64,000 nucleotides of DNA from SAR324 cluster bacterium (GTDB lineage Bacteria > SAR324 > NAC60-12). Both the position numbers and the translations under genes were made by a program. Each line of letters starts with the position of its first letter. Position 1 is the first letter of the stretch. Below the pieces are notes generated by a model. It worked only from the letters and a program-made list of their open reading frames with translations, ran no database searches and was not told where the DNA came from. Of the stretch, positions 13,041-31,119 are shown piece by piece. Location: NCBI GenBank assembly GCA_014382365.1, contig JACNJW010000019.1, forward strand, positions 1 to 64,000. Reading direction: 5' to 3'.

Positions 13041-13946
13041 ATGAAAACAAAAGTTAACAGTATTACTAATTACAAAACCATTCCTGCCAGCAAGATAAAA
13101 GATTACATTACCCTGACCAAGCCTCGCCTGTTGTTCAGCGTGCTCTTCAGTACTGTACTAGGTTATATTATTCCTGTAGACGGCATGGTTGACTCTTTTG
13201 TGCTGCTTAATCTGCTCATTGGTACAGCACTGATAGGTGCTGGTGCACATACACTTAACCAATGGCAGGAGCAAATACCTGACTCAAAAATGAGTCGCAC
13301 AAAAAACCGTCCTTTACCAATGGGACGACTTAGCAGGAGTGAGGTTTTTGTTTTTGGTATTTTGATTAGCATTGGAGGTTTCCTGACTTTATGGTTAAGT
13401 CTAAACCTGCTTACAGCTTCACTAGGTTTACTGACATTAATTTCATATGTCCTGATTTACACTCCGTTAAAAACAAGAACCACCGCCAATACCTGGTTTG
13501 GAGGAATAACTGGTGCATTACCACCGGTGATGGGTTGGACAGCAGCCAGGGGCCAGTTGGACTGGGAAGTCTTACCAATTTTTGCTTTGCTTTATTTTTG
13601 GCAGCTTCCACATTTTTTTGCAATTGCCTGGATGTATCGTGACGATTACCGAAAAGCCGGTTTCAAAATGCTTTCGTTGGAAGACTCTAACGGTCATAAT
13701 ACAAGAGTACAGATGCTGCTTTACGGTTTATTGCTCTTCGCAACCAGTGCTGTCATTTACATGATCGGTCAGGGAAGTTTGCTTTATCTGATAGGTTCAA
13801 TATTGCTGGGAATTAGTTTTTTAGCAGTTATTACTTTATTTTTTCTAGAAAGTAGCGTAAATAATGCGCGTAAGGTTTTTCTAGCATCCATTATTTACCT
13901 GCCGGTCCTGAGCACTGTTTTAGTGTTGGACAGGCTATTTTATTAA
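13041..13946 (+). CDS. ctaB: Protoheme IX farnesyltransferase (heme O synthase)
   Basis: UbiA-type prenyltransferase of 301 residues that farnesylates heme b to heme O. Seen: about eight to nine hydrophobic helices, the ITLTKPRLLFSVLFSTVLGY opening, the Asp-poor CyoE version of the prenyl site (NQWQEQIPDSKMSRTKNRPLPMGRLS) and the YTPLKTRT loop. It heads the oxidase locus. Heme O made here would be converted to heme A by CtaA, encoded on the opposite strand at 20-21 kb. Confidence 0.94.
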   Translation: MKTKVNSITNYKTIPASKIKDYITLTKPRLLFSVLFSTVLGYIIPVDGMVDSFVLLNLLIGTALIGAGAHTLNQWQEQIPDSKMSRTKNRPLPMGRLSRSEVFVFGILISIGGFLTLWLSLNLLTASLGLLTLISYVLIYTPLKTRTTANTWFGGITGALPPVMGWTAARGQLDWEVLPIFALLYFWQLPHFFAIAWMYRDDYRKAGFKMLSLEDSNGHNTRVQMLLYGLLLFATSAVIYMIGQGSLLYLIGSILLGISFLAVITLFFLESSVNNARKVFLASIIYLPVLSTVLVLDRLFY

Positions 13947-13974
13947 TTTTTATTATAAATTGTTTTGGAGGATT

Positions 13975-14079
13975 ATGGAGAAAAGTGATTCCGATGTGAT
14001 GGCATCAAAAGTGTTTTTTGTTACCCTTGGAGGATGTATTTTATTTATGCTGGGTGCCTACGTTTTTGCATTTAATTAG
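13975..14079 (+). CDS. 34-residue single-helix membrane peptide, CoxIIa-like
   Basis: A short gene with a full GGAGG Shine-Dalgarno at 13967-13971, three bases before the ATG. The product is 34 residues: a polar N-terminus (MEKSDSDVMASK), then one hydrophobic helix, ending FAFN. It lies between ctaB and ctaC. Its length and layout resemble subunit IIa of the Thermus ba3 oxidase (also 34 residues, one helix) and other small accessory subunits. I infer an oxidase subunit or assembly peptide. Sequence similarity alone is too short to prove it. Confidence 0.72.
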   Translation: MEKSDSDVMASKVFFVTLGGCILFMLGAYVFAFN

Positions 14080-14159
14080 GATACCCTGAATACTGAAGAT
14101 AAGAAGACTTTCAATTTTTTCGCTGGAATGCGAATAACGATTTACAGGTAAAAACTAAT

Positions 14160-14939
14160 ATGATTGAATATTTTGTACATAATGCGTCCTCATTTGCAGG
14201 GGATATAGACAACCTTTTTCTTTTGATTACTTTAATCATAGGTTTCTGGTTTTTTCTGACATTTGGAGCACTTGTATATTTTATCCTGAAATTCCGTAGG
14301 AAAGAAGGTACGAAGGCCAAGTACATTACAGGCGAGAAACACAGAGAAACGAGATGGACACATTATCCTCACTATGCTGTGATTGCAATGGATGTTGTGA
14401 TCATTGCGGCCAATATCTTCGTCTGGGTCAATATCAAACAGACTCTTCCGCCGAAAGACAATCTGATCCGTGTCATTGGCCAGCAATGGAGCTGGTCTTT
14501 CGTTGACTCTGGGCCGGATGGAGTCCTGGATACTGCTGATGACATTGCTACAGTAAATGACCTGCATGTAAAAGTAGGAGAAACATATCACTTTGAACTA
14601 CAGGCACGTGATGTAATTCATAACTTCTCAGTACCGGTGTTTCGCCTGAGACAGGATGCAATGCCCGGCAGAACAATCAAAGGCTGGTTTAAACCGACAA
14701 AAACAGGCTCATTTGATATTCAATGTGCAGAAATGTGCGGTTACGGTCACGGTATAATGGGTGGTGCAATTACCGTTCATACCAAAGAGAGTTATGACGA
14801 AACGATTGCCCAAATAAAAAATGGGACTTACGAGAGTCATTATCAAAAAAGATTGGGCACCAAGACTCCCTTGCCGTCTAATACCTCGCAGGTCGAAAGC
14901 GAGAATTCTTTTGCTGTGCTGTTAGCCAGTAAATTTTAA
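14160..14939 (+). CDS. ctaC: Cytochrome c oxidase subunit II
   Basis: Subunit II of 259 residues. Two N-terminal transmembrane helices (about 20-45 and 75-95) are followed by the periplasmic cupredoxin domain. The binuclear CuA ligands are visible: H154 (DVIHNFSVP), C189, E191, C193, H197 and M200 (CAEMCGYGHGIM). There is no cytochrome c domain, so electrons must come from a separate cytochrome c. A short acidic insert DGVLDTADD sits between the QQWSW electron-entry motif and the cupredoxin core. No strong ribosome-binding site is seen before the ATG. Confidence 0.94.
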   Translation: MIEYFVHNASSFAGDIDNLFLLITLIIGFWFFLTFGALVYFILKFRRKEGTKAKYITGEKHRETRWTHYPHYAVIAMDVVIIAANIFVWVNIKQTLPPKDNLIRVIGQQWSWSFVDSGPDGVLDTADDIATVNDLHVKVGETYHFELQARDVIHNFSVPVFRLRQDAMPGRTIKGWFKPTKTGSFDIQCAEMCGYGHGIMGGAITVHTKESYDETIAQIKNGTYESHYQKRLGTKTPLPSNTSQVESENSFAVLLASKF

Positions 14940-14966: not shown

Positions 14967-16682
14967 ATGAGTCAGTCAACATCTGCAGTCGCAACAGACA
15001 CTCATGCGGAACATCATGAAGAACTGAGTTTTTTATACAAATATATTCTACCGATTGATCACAAGATCATTGCCATGCAGTACATCTTTACCGGCATGAT
15101 CATGGCAATTGTTGGAGGCTATTTTGCCTACGCTTTCAGGATGCAGTTGGCATTTCCAGGAGATCTGGTGCCACTCTATGGTCTGGTAGGTCCCGGGGAA
15201 TATAATATGCTGGTGACAAATCACGGAACAATCATGATTTTCTGGGTTGCCATGCCGGTCCTAATTGCCGGTTTTGGAAACTATTTGATACCATTGATGA
15301 TTGGTTGTGATGATATGGTTTTTCCACGTCTTAATCGACTATCATATCAAATATTTCTGGTTAGCGCCTTAGTTTTGATCCTTTCATTCTTCGTCAAAGG
15401 TGGAGGATTTGGAGGTGCCTGGACAGCATACCCTCCACTCTCATCTGTTGCGGAATATAGCCTGACAGACTGGGGAGCTTCATTGTGGCTGCTTGCTGTT
15501 GCTTTAGAATTTATATCCTTTTTACTGGGCGGAATTAATTTTGTGACTACCGCAATGAATGCCCGTGCTCCAGGAATGAAAATGCTGGACATTCCGATAG
15601 CAGTTTGGTTTATCGTTGTAGCAGTTATTTTGTTTATGGCATCAGTAGGTCCTCTGGTAGCAGGGGCTGTAATGCTCTTTATGGATCAGAGAGTCGGCAC
15701 AACTTTTTTCCTGCCGTCAGCAGGAGGAGATCCTCTGCTCTGGGAACATCTTTTCTGGTTTTTTGGACATCCTGAGGTATATGTGGTTTTACTACCTACT
15801 ATGGGAATTGTGGCAGAAATAATCACAGTATTTTCCAGAAAAAAATTATTCGGTTATCGAACAGTACTTTACACTGCATTTGCGACAGGTGGCCTGTCTT
15901 TCGTGGTCTGGGCTCACCATCAGTTTATTGCCGGTATTGACCCTCGGATGGCCAATGTTTTTACAGTGACAACTGTTTTAATCTCAATTCCGCTTGCAGA
16001 AATGATGTTCAGTTACATCGCCACCCTTTACGGTGGATCAATAGAACTAAAAACTCCAATGCTCTGGGCTTTGAGTTTTTTAGCAGCCTTCCTGATTGGA
16101 GGAGTTACAGGCATTTATCTTGGTGCGAGTGCAATGGATGTGTACTTTCACGATTCTTATTTCGTGCTGGCCCACTTTCATTACACCTTCTTTCCAATTA
16201 CAATTATAGGAATGTTTGCTGCTCTGACTTATTGGTTTCCAAAAATGTTTGGCCGGATGATGAACGAAACATTGGGCAAAATTCATTTCTGGGGCACATT
16301 TATTCCTTTCAACTGTATTTTCCTGCCGCTATTCTTTCTGGGATTGGCCGGTCAGCATAGACGGATTTACAATTACGATCATTTTCCGGATCTTGCCACA
16401 CAAGAACTGCAGGACATCCGGGTCTTTGCGACTTACAGTTTGATCGTCATGATTTTCTTTCAGTTGATTTTTGTTTATAACTTTTTCCACAGTATGTTCA
16501 AAGGTGAAAAGGCTACTGAAAATCCCTGGAAGTCCAACACTTTGGAGTGGACTACTCTATCACCTCCTCCTCATGGTAATTTCAAAGTTTTGCCTACAGT
16601 GTATCGGGGGCCTTATGAGTACAGTGTTCCGGGGCGTGATGAGGATTATTGGCCGCAAAATGAAGCTCCTAAAAAGAGCTGA
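14967..16682 (+). CDS. ctaD: Cytochrome c oxidase subunit I (aa3-type)
   Basis: Catalytic heme-copper subunit of 571 residues, twelve or more helices, with AGGAGG before the ATG. Ligands seen: H86 and H405 (heme a), H403 (heme a3), and H268, H317, H318 with cross-link Y272 (CuB). D-channel features remain (DDMVFPRLN and E270 in GHPEVY), so this is A1-type. A gap-free comparison with the canonical segment PTGIKIFSW gives P342-L-A-E-M-M-F-S-Y350, so the K-channel lysine position is Met346 and the neighbouring Thr is Leu343. Proton entry on that side must differ. All redox ligands are intact, so it should be active. Confidence 0.95.
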   Translation: MSQSTSAVATDTHAEHHEELSFLYKYILPIDHKIIAMQYIFTGMIMAIVGGYFAYAFRMQLAFPGDLVPLYGLVGPGEYNMLVTNHGTIMIFWVAMPVLIAGFGNYLIPLMIGCDDMVFPRLNRLSYQIFLVSALVLILSFFVKGGGFGGAWTAYPPLSSVAEYSLTDWGASLWLLAVALEFISFLLGGINFVTTAMNARAPGMKMLDIPIAVWFIVVAVILFMASVGPLVAGAVMLFMDQRVGTTFFLPSAGGDPLLWEHLFWFFGHPEVYVVLLPTMGIVAEIITVFSRKKLFGYRTVLYTAFATGGLSFVVWAHHQFIAGIDPRMANVFTVTTVLISIPLAEMMFSYIATLYGGSIELKTPMLWALSFLAAFLIGGVTGIYLGASAMDVYFHDSYFVLAHFHYTFFPITIIGMFAALTYWFPKMFGRMMNETLGKIHFWGTFIPFNCIFLPLFFLGLAGQHRRIYNYDHFPDLATQELQDIRVFATYSLIVMIFFQLIFVYNFFHSMFKGEKATENPWKSNTLEWTTLSPPPHGNFKVLPTVYRGPYEYSVPGRDEDYWPQNEAPKKS

Positions 16683-16755: not shown

Positions 16756-17337
16756 ATGTCGACGCATGGGCCTATCGCAACACACCGCAGTGCTACCGGC
16801 GTACCATCAGGACGATTAGCAATTTGGTGGCTGCTCGCTTCAGAAATATTTATTTTTGGCGGCTTAGTTGTCTGCTTTGTACTCTTTAAACTGAATGGTA
16901 CTCCTGGATTTGAAGATGCTTCGCTGACAAGTACTGCTGCCGGTGCAATCAACACTTTTGTACTTTTGACTTCAAGTTTAAGTATCGTGCTGGCTCATGC
17001 AGCTATTGAAAAAGGTGATAGTGCCAAGTCATTCACCTATATCTGGTATACCATTGGCGGAGGTTTTGTATTTTTAGGCATAAAAGCCTATGAATACACC
17101 GGCAAAATACTGCATGGCCATACACTGACTGATAACCTCTTCTGGTCGTTTTATTATACAATGACGGGCTTGCATGCCCTGCATGTAATCGGCGGAATGG
17201 TTATCATGGCTCTCATATCATTTGATATCCGCAAAGGACACAATTATCAACGTGTGGAATTGATTGGTATTTACTGGCACTTTGTTGATCTTGTCTGGAT
17301 CTTCCTGTTTCCACTTTTGTATATTGCAAATTTCTAA
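16756..17337 (+). CDS. ctaE: Cytochrome c oxidase subunit III
   Basis: Heme-copper oxidase subunit III of 193 residues, five predicted helices (the short bacterial form). Seen: the SEIFIFGGL helix, the TGLHALHVIGGM motif and the closing YWHFVDLVWIFLFPLLY that define the family. AAAGGA precedes the ATG. It follows ctaD by 73 bases. A second, different subunit III gene occurs two genes downstream. Confidence 0.93.
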   Translation: MSTHGPIATHRSATGVPSGRLAIWWLLASEIFIFGGLVVCFVLFKLNGTPGFEDASLTSTAAGAINTFVLLTSSLSIVLAHAAIEKGDSAKSFTYIWYTIGGGFVFLGIKAYEYTGKILHGHTLTDNLFWSFYYTMTGLHALHVIGGMVIMALISFDIRKGHNYQRVELIGIYWHFVDLVWIFLFPLLYIANF

Positions 17338-17368
17338 ATATAACTTTCATCCCGTTACAGGTTTTATT

Positions 17369-17698
17369 ATGAGTGAAACGTACGCACATCCCAATTATAT
17401 AAAAATATGGTTTTGGCTGCTGATTTTGTTGGCCCTCAGTGTGGCAGGTCCCATGCTGGAAATACCAGCCCTGACTATATTAACAGCCTTTGGAATAGCA
17501 GTCGTTAAAGCATTCCTGGTTGCTGCCAATTTCATGCATTTGAAGTTTGAGAAAAAAATAATTTGGTTTTTACTTATCCTATCTATGTGCCTTCTTGGTG
17601 TATTCTTTTTTGGTGCAGCACCTGATGTTATGATGACAGAAGGTGACCAGTGGATAGATTGTATTGCAGACAAATCTTGTGTTGAGCAACGTTTGTGA
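17369..17698 (+). CDS. ctaF: Cytochrome c oxidase subunit IV (prokaryotic type)
   Basis: Small membrane subunit of 109 residues with three hydrophobic helices and the AFLVAANFMHLKFEKK motif typical of COX4_pro/CtaF/CyoD proteins. The start is the ATG of MSETYAHPNYIK. The longer reading from 17264 runs inside subunit III and is not used. Its stop overlaps the GTG start of the next gene by four bases. It is thought to help assemble or stabilise subunits I and III. Confidence 0.85.
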   Translation: MSETYAHPNYIKIWFWLLILLALSVAGPMLEIPALTILTAFGIAVVKAFLVAANFMHLKFEKKIIWFLLILSMCLLGVFFFGAAPDVMMTEGDQWIDCIADKSCVEQRL

Positions 17699-18321
17699 AA
17701 AATATTTCCAGTCAGTCGGTTTTGTTGACCACATCAGAAATCCCATTATATGCAGCAAATAAGAGAAGCAAGCCTCCGGTTTCTAATGGTGTTATCGGAA
17801 TGCTGATTTTCTTGGTCACAGAAGCTATGTTTTTTGCTGCTCTCATCAGTGCACACATGGTGATCCGTGCAGGATTGACTGAATGGCCACCCTGGGGGCA
17901 GCCAAGATTGGCTATTGAAACCACTGCCTTAAACTCTCTGGTATTGTTAGTCAGTGCATTATTGATGGGCTATTCAAGAAGATTGCTCCAGCAAGACAAA
18001 ATCTCGTCAGGACGGCGCTGGTTTGGAATTTCAATTTTATTTGGTATCTTCTTTTTGCTGTCCCAAGGTTATGAGTGGGTACAACTTCTTGAGTTTGGGC
18101 TCACTTTATCATCCAGCGTTTACGGGGGTTTGTTCTATTTAATAATTGGTGCACATGCTTTTCATGTGATTGGGGCTCTTTCAGTGCTGATATATGCCTG
18201 GAACCGTTTAGGATCTTCAAAGAATCCTATTACTCCTGAGGCAGTTTTTCCCCTCCAAATTTTGTGGTATTTCGTGGTCTGCATTTGGCCGGTGCTCTAT
18301 GTGTTGGTTTATTTGAGCTGA
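17695..18321 (+). CDS. Second cytochrome c oxidase subunit III
   Basis: A further subunit III family protein, 208 residues, five helices, starting with GTG and overlapping ctaF by four bases (GTGA). Seen: the LVTEAMFFAALISAHMV helix, YEWVQLLEFGL, GAHAFHVIGA and the closing LQILWYFVVCIWPVLYVLVY. It is clearly divergent from the first subunit III at 16756. Such duplicated subunit III genes occur in some caa3/aa3 loci. Whether both enter one complex is unknown. Confidence 0.87.
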   Translation: MKNISSQSVLLTTSEIPLYAANKRSKPPVSNGVIGMLIFLVTEAMFFAALISAHMVIRAGLTEWPPWGQPRLAIETTALNSLVLLVSALLMGYSRRLLQQDKISSGRRWFGISILFGIFFLLSQGYEWVQLLEFGLTLSSSVYGGLFYLIIGAHAFHVIGALSVLIYAWNRLGSSKNPITPEAVFPLQILWYFVVCIWPVLYVLVYLS

Positions 18322-18362: not shown

Positions 18363-18581
18363 ATGTGCGGCATGAAATTTAAATTTGTACTACAATTAAC
18401 ACTGGTTTATATTTTTTCCCTTTTGCCAGAAAGAGCCAATGCCTGTGCAGTCTGCTTTACTGCCACTGAGGAAACATTAGAGGCGTTTTACGCTACAACT
18501 ATTATCCTTACCTTGCTTCCGTTGGTGATGGTTTCCTCCATTGTTTACTGGCTTTATCGTAAACACAGAAAGATCGGATGA
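18363..18581 (+). CDS. Small exported membrane protein with CAVC motif
   Basis: A 72-residue protein: signal-type N-terminus (FKFVLQLTLVYIFSLLPERANA), a Cys pair CAVC right after the predicted cleavage site, a short linker and one C-terminal transmembrane helix ending WLYRKHRKIG. The periplasmic CxxC beside an oxidase suggests a thiol or metal function, for example in copper delivery, but this is inference. The start could also be the Met at 18372. Its stop overlaps the next start by four bases. Confidence 0.75.
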   Translation: MCGMKFKFVLQLTLVYIFSLLPERANACAVCFTATEETLEAFYATTIILTLLPLVMVSSIVYWLYRKHRKIG

Positions 18582-19607: not shown

Positions 19608-19632
19608 ATCATTTATACTCTTCATAAATGAT
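19608..19632. terminator. Hairpin between convergent genes
   Basis: Perfect 9-bp inverted repeat ATCATTTAT / ATAAATGAT with a seven-base loop, at the junction of the L,D-transpeptidase and the convergent ctaM-like gene, whose stop codon lies in the loop. There is no clear U-tract on either strand, so terminator function is tentative. Confidence 0.4.
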
Positions 19633-20155
19633 TCAGCAACAGGTAAATTAAAACGCCAGTAACTGAGACGTACAACCAGAGTGGGAAAGTAATTCTGGCA
19701 ATTTTAGGATGTCTCTTAAAATTTCCAGTTGCAGCAAAATAAACTGTAGTCAGTACCAAAGGCAGGACAACGACTGAAAGCAAAATATGTGAAATCAAAA
19801 TGAAGAAATACACATTACGAATCCATCCCTCTCCTTGAAACAGTGTATCTCCGTGAAATGCATGATAAGTCAAATAACTAATTAAGAACAAAAACGAGAA
19901 TGTTAATGCACTTATCATCATTTTGAGATGACGTGTCTTTTGCTCTTTCCGAATTGCTATATATCCCAGTATTAAACTTATAGCACTTAGAGAGTTTAAA
20001 ACAGCATTGAGTGCAGGTAAAAAACTTAGATCTATAGTATCTCCAGCCGAAGTTGGCTCCCGCAAATAAATTAACCATAGCAACAGCAACAAAATAACGG
20101 CTGAAATTACTAAAATAGACGAAATAGCAGTTTTGTTGGAAAATGGATTATTCAT
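19622..20155 (-). CDS. ctaM: DUF420 family membrane protein, CtaM-like
   Basis: Integral membrane protein of 177 residues with about five helices. It carries conserved histidines in TYHAFHGDTLFQGEGWIRNVYFFILISHILLSVVVLPLVL, characteristic of DUF420. In Firmicutes a DUF420 protein (CtaM) is needed for cytochrome aa3 maturation, probably in heme A handling. The gene overlaps the upstream ctaA by eight bases, which supports that role here. A TTG at 20185 in the same frame has no ribosome-binding site, so I use the ATG at 20155. Confidence 0.82.
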   Translation of the reverse strand: MNNPFSNKTAISSILVISAVILLLLLWLIYLREPTSAGDTIDLSFLPALNAVLNSLSAISLILGYIAIRKEQKTRHLKMMISALTFSFLFLISYLTYHAFHGDTLFQGEGWIRNVYFFILISHILLSVVVLPLVLTTVYFAATGNFKRHPKIARITFPLWLYVSVTGVLIYLLLNHL

Positions 20156-21140
20156 ATTTTTTTCTTTTATGATGATTCCCTGCAATCGTAAAAAATATTA
20201 TCCCAGTCAAAGTAGCGGCAATTGCAGTATGCAAAGCTGATATTGGTGCCGGAACACGCAGGACTGCGTTTATTATACCAATACATATTTCCAGTAGTAT
20301 CAGCAAGATAATACTAAGAGCTGTTATTTGATCGCCATGCCTGTTCTTCAACCAGCGCCAGGACATCAGCAGCAAGAATAATGCTCCGCTTACTGCAATC
20401 AGTCTGTGCAGCATGTGTATCCATTCATTTTCATATTCCGGTAGAAACCGTCCTCGAAAATCCAAAGGTGCCTGCGGAAGTTTATGGTCTTCTATCCCAG
20501 ACCAGGCTGAAATGTCAGTACCACTCATCCCAAATGACAAATAGCTTTCCTCGTGGCAACCTGGAAAAGCCTCACAGTGAGTACCCGATGAGGTAGTGCT
20601 GTTATATCCACCTGAGCCGATTATTACAAATAAAACTGCAAGCATCCAATAAAGTTGTCTGCGTTCCAGTGCTAAAGAAGCCAGTGTGTTAGTGTTAGGA
20701 GCAAGACAGTTTGAAGAATCACCTTTTGCATCAAGAAAAGTTACCCTGGCCAAATATACCAGTATTCCAAATAATAAATTTCCTCCCAACAGGTGTAGAG
20801 TCACAATCGGAGGCCAGAGTACCATTGTGACTGTCAATGCTCCTAAAATACCCTGGATAAAAACTATAATCAGCCCAGCAAAAACTGGTTTACGATGTTG
20901 AAAATAAGAATCTTGTCGGAATGTGAGAATAGTGATGGCAATAATTAAGAAACCTAAAATAACAGCAACTAACCGATGTCCTGTTTCCAGAGCAATTTCA
21001 TAGCCGGGAGGTGGAATGAACTGACCATAGCAAAGCGGCCAATCCGGGCATGATAAACCAGCATTTTTTAAACGTACAAAAGCACCAAACGGAATCAAGG
21101 GCCAGGTTAAAAGCGCGGCCCCCAAACACAACCACTTCAT
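20148..21140 (-). CDS. ctaA: Heme A synthase (COX15/CtaA family)
   Basis: Heme A synthase of 330 residues, eight predicted helices. It oxidises the C8 methyl of heme O to give heme A for the aa3 oxidase. Seen: the four expected heme/catalytic histidine regions (LETGHRLVAVILG, ILTHL-type VTLHLLGGNLLFG, IHMLHRLIAVSG, ISALHTAIAATLTG) and the FVRLKNAGLSCPDWPLCYGQ loop. The central periplasmic loop has a Cys pair (GTHCEAFPGC). It is divergent from the histidine kinase region and shares the locus with ctaB through ctaF. Confidence 0.93.
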   Translation of the reverse strand: MKWLCLGAALLTWPLIPFGAFVRLKNAGLSCPDWPLCYGQFIPPPGYEIALETGHRLVAVILGFLIIAITILTFRQDSYFQHRKPVFAGLIIVFIQGILGALTVTMVLWPPIVTLHLLGGNLLFGILVYLARVTFLDAKGDSSNCLAPNTNTLASLALERRQLYWMLAVLFVIIGSGGYNSTTSSGTHCEAFPGCHEESYLSFGMSGTDISAWSGIEDHKLPQAPLDFRGRFLPEYENEWIHMLHRLIAVSGALFLLLMSWRWLKNRHGDQITALSIILLILLEICIGIINAVLRVPAPISALHTAIAATLTGIIFFTIAGNHHKRKKYE

Positions 21141-30936: not shown

Positions 30937-31119
30937 TCAGTACCAGATCATATTAATAAATTTTCCTTTTCCATCCCATTTTTCTGTCATAGCAGCTGAT
31001 TTTCCGGTGATAACTCTTTGAGACGGTACGCTAAAATTATCTGAGTTCGGAGAAACCAAAAACCAACTGATGGCAAGCACCAATAGAGAAATGGTCAAAA
31101 ACACCGTCAAACTTTTCAT
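30937..31119 (-). CDS. Small secreted or anchored hypothetical protein
   Basis: A 60-residue reading frame with an excellent AAGGAGG ribosome-binding site six bases before its ATG. The product has an N-terminal hydrophobic segment (SLTVFLTISLLVLAISWFLV), then a short polar tail of about 38 residues ending INMIWY. It may be a one-helix membrane protein with a periplasmic tail. I recognise no family. It stands alone in a gene-poor stretch, and the strong translation signal is the main support. Confidence 0.6.
   Translation of the reverse strand: MKSLTVFLTISLLVLAISWFLVSPNSDNFSVPSQRVITGKSAAMTEKWDGKGKFINMIWY

Follow-up and report, generated by a model that had tools for sequence, protein, structure and literature searches.

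Does the short open frame in front of the oxidase subunit II gene of a SAR324 bacterium encode a protein and, if so, what would this protein do for the oxidase? The window, by which we mean the whole 64,000-nucleotide stretch of DNA analyzed here, is part of a SAR324 genome in 71 contigs. A preliminary description had pointed to a 34-codon frame with a full GGAGG and one transmembrane helix between the genes for heme O synthase (ctaB) and cytochrome c oxidase subunit II (ctaC), and had compared its product with subunit IIa of the Thermus ba3 oxidase.

The short frame and its oxidase operon

The oxidase genes of the window lie on the forward strand. The heme O synthase gene ctaB (13041-13946; TIGR01473 over cut-off) is followed by ctaC (14160-14939), which was assigned by alignment and by a PF00116 match over cut-off, with PF02790 and TIGR02866 below theirs. 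Its product carries a CuA motif of the form C-A-E-M-C-x3-H-x2-M and two hydrophobic helices, both visible by eye in 20 aligned CtaC sequences; the COX2_TM two-helix match was below cut-off. Subunit I is encoded by ctaD (14967-16682; PF00115 over cut-off, TIGR02891 below), and family matches identified a subunit III-like protein (COX3, 16756-17337), a subunit IV-like protein (COX4_pro, caa3_sub_IV, 17369-17698, with its start set at an internal ATG of the frame 17264-17698) and a second subunit III-like protein (COX3, 17695-18321). The COX4_pro gene is thus flanked by two different COX3-like genes (16756-18321). Directly after the oxidase genes, positions 18363-18581 (forward strand) encode a protein of 72 aa that contains a hydrophobic stretch and the CxxC motif ACAVCF; it had no match in Pfam or NCBIfam at E ≤1 and is possibly, at a guess, a copper-handling helper. 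On the reverse strand, the region 19622-21140 encodes a protein that looks by eye like heme A synthase and a smaller membrane protein overlapping its end.

All that the preliminary description had read in the frame itself, namely its 34 codons, full GGAGG, single helix and place between ctaB and ctaC, was confirmed. The frame occupies positions 13975-14079 of the forward strand, starts with ATG and translates as MEKSDSDVMASKVFFVTLGGCILFMLGAYVFAFN, followed by a stop codon. The Shine-Dalgarno word GGAGG (13967-13971) ends 3 nt before the ATG, a short spacer, and is retained in 10 of 11 same-genus sequences. The peptide has one hydrophobic stretch, with a best 19-residue Kyte-Doolittle mean of 2.25. 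We scanned both strands of the window, outside ORFs of at least 100 aa, for ATG-started frames of 25-60 aa that have a Shine-Dalgarno-like word and a mean hydropathy ≥2.0, and found only two, including 13975-14079. The other is a 60-aa frame on the reverse strand (30937-31119).

Codon analysis was performed on 11 of the 14 same-genus sequences, leaving aside two with an N-terminal insertion and one broken frame (genome G004). The peptide frame showed 657 nonsynonymous and 370 synonymous differences; the corresponding counts for the two alternative frames were 965:97 and 937:101. Changes at the first, second and third codon positions numbered 451, 382 and 690, the third position taking the most, and the median dN/dS was 0.21 (53 of 55 pairs, two being saturated). 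The frame at 13975-14079 is a genuine small gene under protein-level constraint. Its product had no match in Pfam or NCBIfam at E ≤1, and a set of 31 members of the peptide family gave scattered matches to family models, each involving one or two members, with a best E of 0.019. Between the peptide gene and ctaC, a hairpin-like block (14120-14133, forward strand) is kept in part of the genus and stands outside our main claim. In the genus, the region 14120-14150 reads TCGCT-loop-AGCGA, then AACGAT, and by eye the block is missing or broken in three of 11 members.

Occurrence of the peptide in SAR324, Myxococcota and other groups

We ran a profile built from the 31 peptide family members (A1) over 52 SAR324 genomes and searched the same genomes with the CtaC of the window. 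The family to which the window belongs comprises 31 genomes, its own included. A close CtaC was found in 25 of them and the peptide lay upstream on the same strand in all 25, with 12-159 nt between the matches. The peptide match is weaker in G022 (1.7e-6), and a frame shift splits it in G004 (locus L023, 1466-1566), where the adjacent ctaC is intact; the shift reflects either an assembly error or decay. The six family genomes without a close CtaC (57-95% complete) had no peptide match better than E 0.56, an absence that is soft, like the others in this survey, because most surveyed genomes are incomplete assemblies. In the three other SAR324 families (f2-f4), ten distant CtaC matches were accompanied by no credible peptide according to the profile, and no family-like frame was seen upstream of the nine that were read; a partial distant CtaC-like match (G012:C34) is outside these nine.

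Similar frames also occur away from ctaC in SAR324 (G010:C1, G025:C47, G019:C38), and no oxidase was recognized by eye among the listed surrounding ORFs of at least 100 aa for these three. No CtaC was present in the DNA examined around any of five such look-alike frames from SAR324 and Myxococcota. Two SAR324 genomes of one genus carry similar 41-residue one-helix frames (L115 near 9100 and L116 near 9300), which lie near a gene looking by eye like an M23 peptidase, again with no CtaC in the DNA examined around them.

Scanning named genomes for CtaC yielded 27 loci: 10 from the genus of the window and 17 from groups titled Myxococcota, Bdellovibrionota, Acidobacteria, Opitutaceae and others. 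At 16 of these 17 loci we found a one-helix frame ending anywhere from 8 nt inside ctaC to 123 nt before it; 15 of the frames fit the peptide family, while that of an Opitutia locus (L051) does not match the profile. The remaining locus, from Tanganyikabacteria (L055), has the clade oxidase and no peptide. Since A1 itself contains 15 non-SAR324 peptides, a fair test calls for a profile made from the 16 SAR324 peptides only. With this profile, every one of the top 11 among 2569 six-frame ORFs from the 17 loci was a frame next to ctaC (E 3e-7 to 0.02). A further three ctaC-adjacent frames ranked lower, with E of 0.46 to 2.2, amid chance matches, and L051, L054 and L055 gave no match.

Myxococcota, the phylum of a genome titled Myxococcales (G067), were surveyed through 140 genomes with the peptide and CtaC profiles. 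The peptide profile matched 44 places in 42 genomes and the CtaC profile 49 places in 48 genomes, the latter falling into two groups, 43 places at 324 bits or more (the clade) and six at 256 bits or less (distant). By profile, the peptide was located 11-122 nt upstream of 41 of the 43 clade ctaC genes, with a gap of at most 50 nt in 36 of the 41; both profiles include three of these 41 as members (G059, G067, G071). The two other clade genes were a ctaC whose peptide, missed by the profile, was present by inspection (G182) and one for which ctaC and peptide each sit at a contig end, at a contig break (G079). None of the six distant CtaC genes had the peptide, five of them being testable as the sixth starts mid-gene at a contig end (G178), and a genome with both kinds of ctaC (G176), which supplies one of these five, had it at the clade copy only. 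Conversely, 41 of the 44 peptide places were beside a clade ctaC, the rest being the G079 contig end, G095:C82 and G130:C34. When 27 new Myxococcota loci were fetched by the peptide profile alone, ctaC stood beside the peptide in 26 and the 27th was at a contig end; second peptide copies in other genomes (L134, L135) were also beside a ctaC. The preliminary description had proposed looking in relatives for a conserved short frame ahead of ctaC, and such a frame is there in both SAR324 (25/25 genomes with a close CtaC in the family of the window) and Myxococcota (41/43 clade ctaC genes). With frame, helix, ribosome-binding site and position all conserved, the lack of conservation that it had named as fatal to its reading is ruled out.

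In Bdellovibrionota (the phylum of G060), three of 114 genomes matched at E ≤0.01; one match was convincing and is itself an A1 member, and the other two had no CtaC beside them. In Acidobacteriota (the phylum of G062), two of 149 genomes matched, both beside ctaC, one being an A1 member and the other G338. The peptide family is rare in these two phyla and patchy outside SAR324 and Myxococcota.

Peptide anatomy and comparison with known small subunits

The anatomy of the peptide was studied on 59 members with a median length of 35 residues. This set leaves out near-copies (among them L003, L004, L006, L011, L015, L018, L020, L149 and L164), the broken G004 and weak G022 peptides, the frames lying away from ctaC, L051 and those Myxococcota places for which no locus was fetched. 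The conserved positions are D/E7 (53 of 59), A10 (42), K/R12 (42), F14 (56) and T17 (37) and, more distally, G20 (44), an aromatic residue at 24 (59) and F31 (42). They are spaced by 2-7 residues, mostly by 3 or 4, which places F14 to F31 on one helix face. A shuffling test on residues 13-33 gave p = 0.009 for a 100-degree moment in conservation. Cysteine is most common at position 21, where 15 of the 59 members have it. A Lys or Arg is found at positions 11-13 in 49 members and nothing extends past position 34 in 46. By the positive-inside rule, on which membrane topology can be predicted, these basic residues suggest that the N-terminus is inside and the C-terminus outside.

The passages of PMC3128077 on subunit IIa describe a protein of 34 residues in Thermus and of 34-71 in surveyed bacteria, encoded directly upstream of subunit II and sometimes left unannotated, with a signature P-X1-3-G-(T/A) plus a conserved Gly and Trp. 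According to the same passages, where subunit II has a single helix, IIa supplies the missing first one, sitting at the site of helix 1 of an A-type subunit II with the opposite polarity (PMC3128077). Like this CoxIIa/CbaD subunit of B-type ba3 oxidases (PF08113), the peptide has one helix and about 34 residues, and its gene is directly upstream of that of subunit II. It differs in belonging to another sequence family, in having an A-type partner whose two-helix subunit II would fill the IIa site, and in nearly lacking the IIa signature: the motif P-X1-3-G-(T/A) was found in one of 59 members and a Trp anywhere in 21; a Gly, possibly different in position from that of IIa, is common at position 20 (44 of 59). 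The PF08113 profile was run over 16 genomes, 11 of them peptide carriers; none of the 16 had a match over cut-off and none of the 20 places at E ≤10 was a ctaC-adjacent peptide. In a control, one of 14 genomes exceeded the cut-off and 10 had matches, Thermus composti among them. PF08113 was also absent from the Pfam matches of the 31 peptide members at E ≤1. Judged by profile, motif and partner type, the peptide is not a CoxIIa member. What stands of the earlier interpretation is a real one-helix peptide gene that goes with an A-type oxidase; its kinship with Thermus ba3 subunit IIa was not borne out, the suggested CoxIIa profile search having matched no ctaC-adjacent peptide.

Other small proteins of terminal oxidases invite comparison. 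As an accessory protein with one helix in an A-type oxidase, subunit IV of alphaproteobacterial aa3 oxidases (PF07835) answers to a general description that the peptide would share. PF07835 was absent from the Pfam families listed for the 31 peptide members at E ≤1 and, in a further difference, the operon of the window also has a COX4_pro protein (PF03626). CydX is a tiny subunit of bd oxidases, and both CydX and CcoM stabilize their oxidases. CcoM, the tiny subunit of cbb3 oxidase, is given 36 aa in the relevant passage of PMC10433244. Both resemble the peptide, by description only, as tiny terminal-oxidase subunits, and they differ in belonging to other oxidase types. PDB searches, one of them with the peptide profile, brought up no oxidase chain at E ≤10. 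There were weak similarities to photosystem I PsaX (E 0.13, profile search) and, in another search, to a 37-aa chain, 8k9e_I (E 0.72), which we took as chance likenesses of hydrophobic helices. By analogy, the peptide's mode of action may be akin to that of subunit IIa, CcoM or CydX.

The partner enzyme and the proposed role of the peptide

The D-channel Glu (in GHPEVY) and the D-channel Asp were each present in all 64 peptide-positive CtaD rows, and by these two features the partner enzyme is classified as A-type. The lysine of Rhodobacter 1m56 that we take to be that of the K channel aligns with Met346 of the window CtaD, which Glu345 adjoins. This lysine is among the K-channel residues listed in PMC3084760, whose passage on the channel names Lys354, Thr351, Ser291 and Tyr280 (P. 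denitrificans numbering). Once three second copies of one gene were removed, 61 distinct peptide-positive CtaD rows remained (L034 and L051 gave none); none had the K-channel Lys, a Thr at 343 or a Ser/Thr at 283, and all 61 had the Tyr. Glu345 was found in 59 of them, the exceptions being L106 and L107, where the peptide is present. Among peptide-free rows, the relatives L108 and L238-L241 have neither the K-channel Lys nor Glu345, L055 has Glu345, and the other five carry the Lys. In CtaC, His71 occurred in 63 of 65 peptide rows versus one of 14 others, and Asp78 in 65 of 65 as well as in seven of the 14 others, which are the lysine-less ones. A quick CtaD tree gathered 62 rows in one branch (SH-aLRT 98), 61 with the peptide and one without, and the peptide label needed two changes against a mean of 10.4 after shuffling, with none of 500 shuffles as low. 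By parsimony, the loss of the K-channel lysine is older than the peptide, so the two would not be one event. An acid at CtaD 284 was also considered as part of a rebuilt channel and dropped, since every row has it, whether peptide-positive (64) or peptide-free (11), those with the lysine included. An open-licence literature search found no description of such a peptide or of a lysine-less A-type clade.

Several readings of the peptide gene can be weighed against these data. Short hydrophobic frames arise by chance in AT-rich DNA, and this one might have no function at all; conservation across groups, a constant position, codon-level constraint and the count of just two such frames in 64 kb make this hardly credible, and the sequence evidence indicates that the tiny gene is very probably an overlooked small part of the oxidase, or an assembly helper. 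It is also improbable that the frame is a leader peptide or regulatory upstream frame, in which the act of translation and not the product would control ctaC. The frame does precede ctaC, whose ribosome-binding site looks weak by eye in the SAR324 genus, and the gap of 72-156 nt in the 11 genus sequences holds the small hairpin-like block. However, constraint acts at the level of the amino acid sequence and follows one helix face, 36 of the 41 Myxococcota gaps are no longer than 50 nt, the hairpin is lost or broken by eye in three of the 11 genus members, and the single Rfam match, which might have hinted at a riboswitch, was far below cut-off and on the other strand, with no terminator-like site. 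A true CoxIIa that diverged and moved from a B-type to an A-type oxidase would account for the equal length, the single helix, the place directly upstream of subunit II and the inferred polarity, as well as for a look-alike stretch, L-G-x-Y near the C-terminus, shared with what we take to be the Thermus IIa sequence (unaligned). We nevertheless consider such an origin most improbable, given the lack of a PF08113 match, a IIa motif in a single member out of 59, no IIa chain among the PDB matches at E ≤10, and a IIa place filled by helix 1 of the two-helix CtaC (as that place is described in the IIa passages of PMC3128077).

The peptide could also be an assembly factor that binds nascent CtaC or CtaD in the membrane, assists insertion or the loading of cofactors and departs once the enzyme is complete. 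Tiny membrane proteins with roles in oxidase assembly exist and provide a precedent, and the gene order, directly before ctaC wherever the two are linked and behind ctaB in the window, would suit an early action. Against this role, the peptide has no conserved metal-binding residue, even its top cysteine position being occupied in 15 of 59 members, and its linkage with a single subunit II clade, close to one-to-one, is what is typically seen with a subunit, though compatible with assembly. Gene neighborhood alone cannot separate a subunit from an assembly factor, and we hold the assembly role to be somewhat unlikely while giving it real weight. Over it we favor, as the probable reading, a stable, stoichiometric accessory subunit of one A-type oxidase clade. 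Counting against this reading are the five look-alike frames remote from ctaC, the L055 oxidase with no peptide, the unmatched upstream frame of L051, the broken G004 frame and the weak G022 match. Genetic linkage and co-occurrence with one oxidase type, both observed here, support placing the peptide in the accessory-subunit class.

As an accessory subunit, the peptide would be inserted so that its short, charged N-terminus stays in the cytoplasm, and most members would have no tail outside. A docking face made of D7-A10-K/R12-F14-T17-G20-F/Y/W24-A27/28-F31 would then contact subunit II or I in its transmembrane part, where the docked peptide would stay and stabilize the complex, as small subunits of other terminal oxidases do. 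Because CtaC keeps its helix 1, the peptide cannot simply replace it. A bolder version would make the peptide an obligate subunit of an undescribed A-type subclass with a rebuilt K channel, in which Lys, Thr and Ser were lost, CtaD Glu345 and His71 and Asp78 of the second CtaC helix were gained, and a substitute proton entry is formed with the help of two peptide residues, the conserved cytoplasm-side acid D/E7 (53 of 59) and Thr17 in the membrane (37 of 59); we regard this version as highly doubtful.

If the accessory-subunit reading is true, a subunit of a respiratory oxidase has been overlooked in SAR324 and in a sizeable part of Myxococcota, the oxidase belonging to a branch whose subunit I is also without the textbook K-channel lysine. 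It would further mean a separate origin of one-helix accessory subunits in A-type oxidases. The enzyme clade defined here offers natural variants for testing the need for the K-channel lysine.
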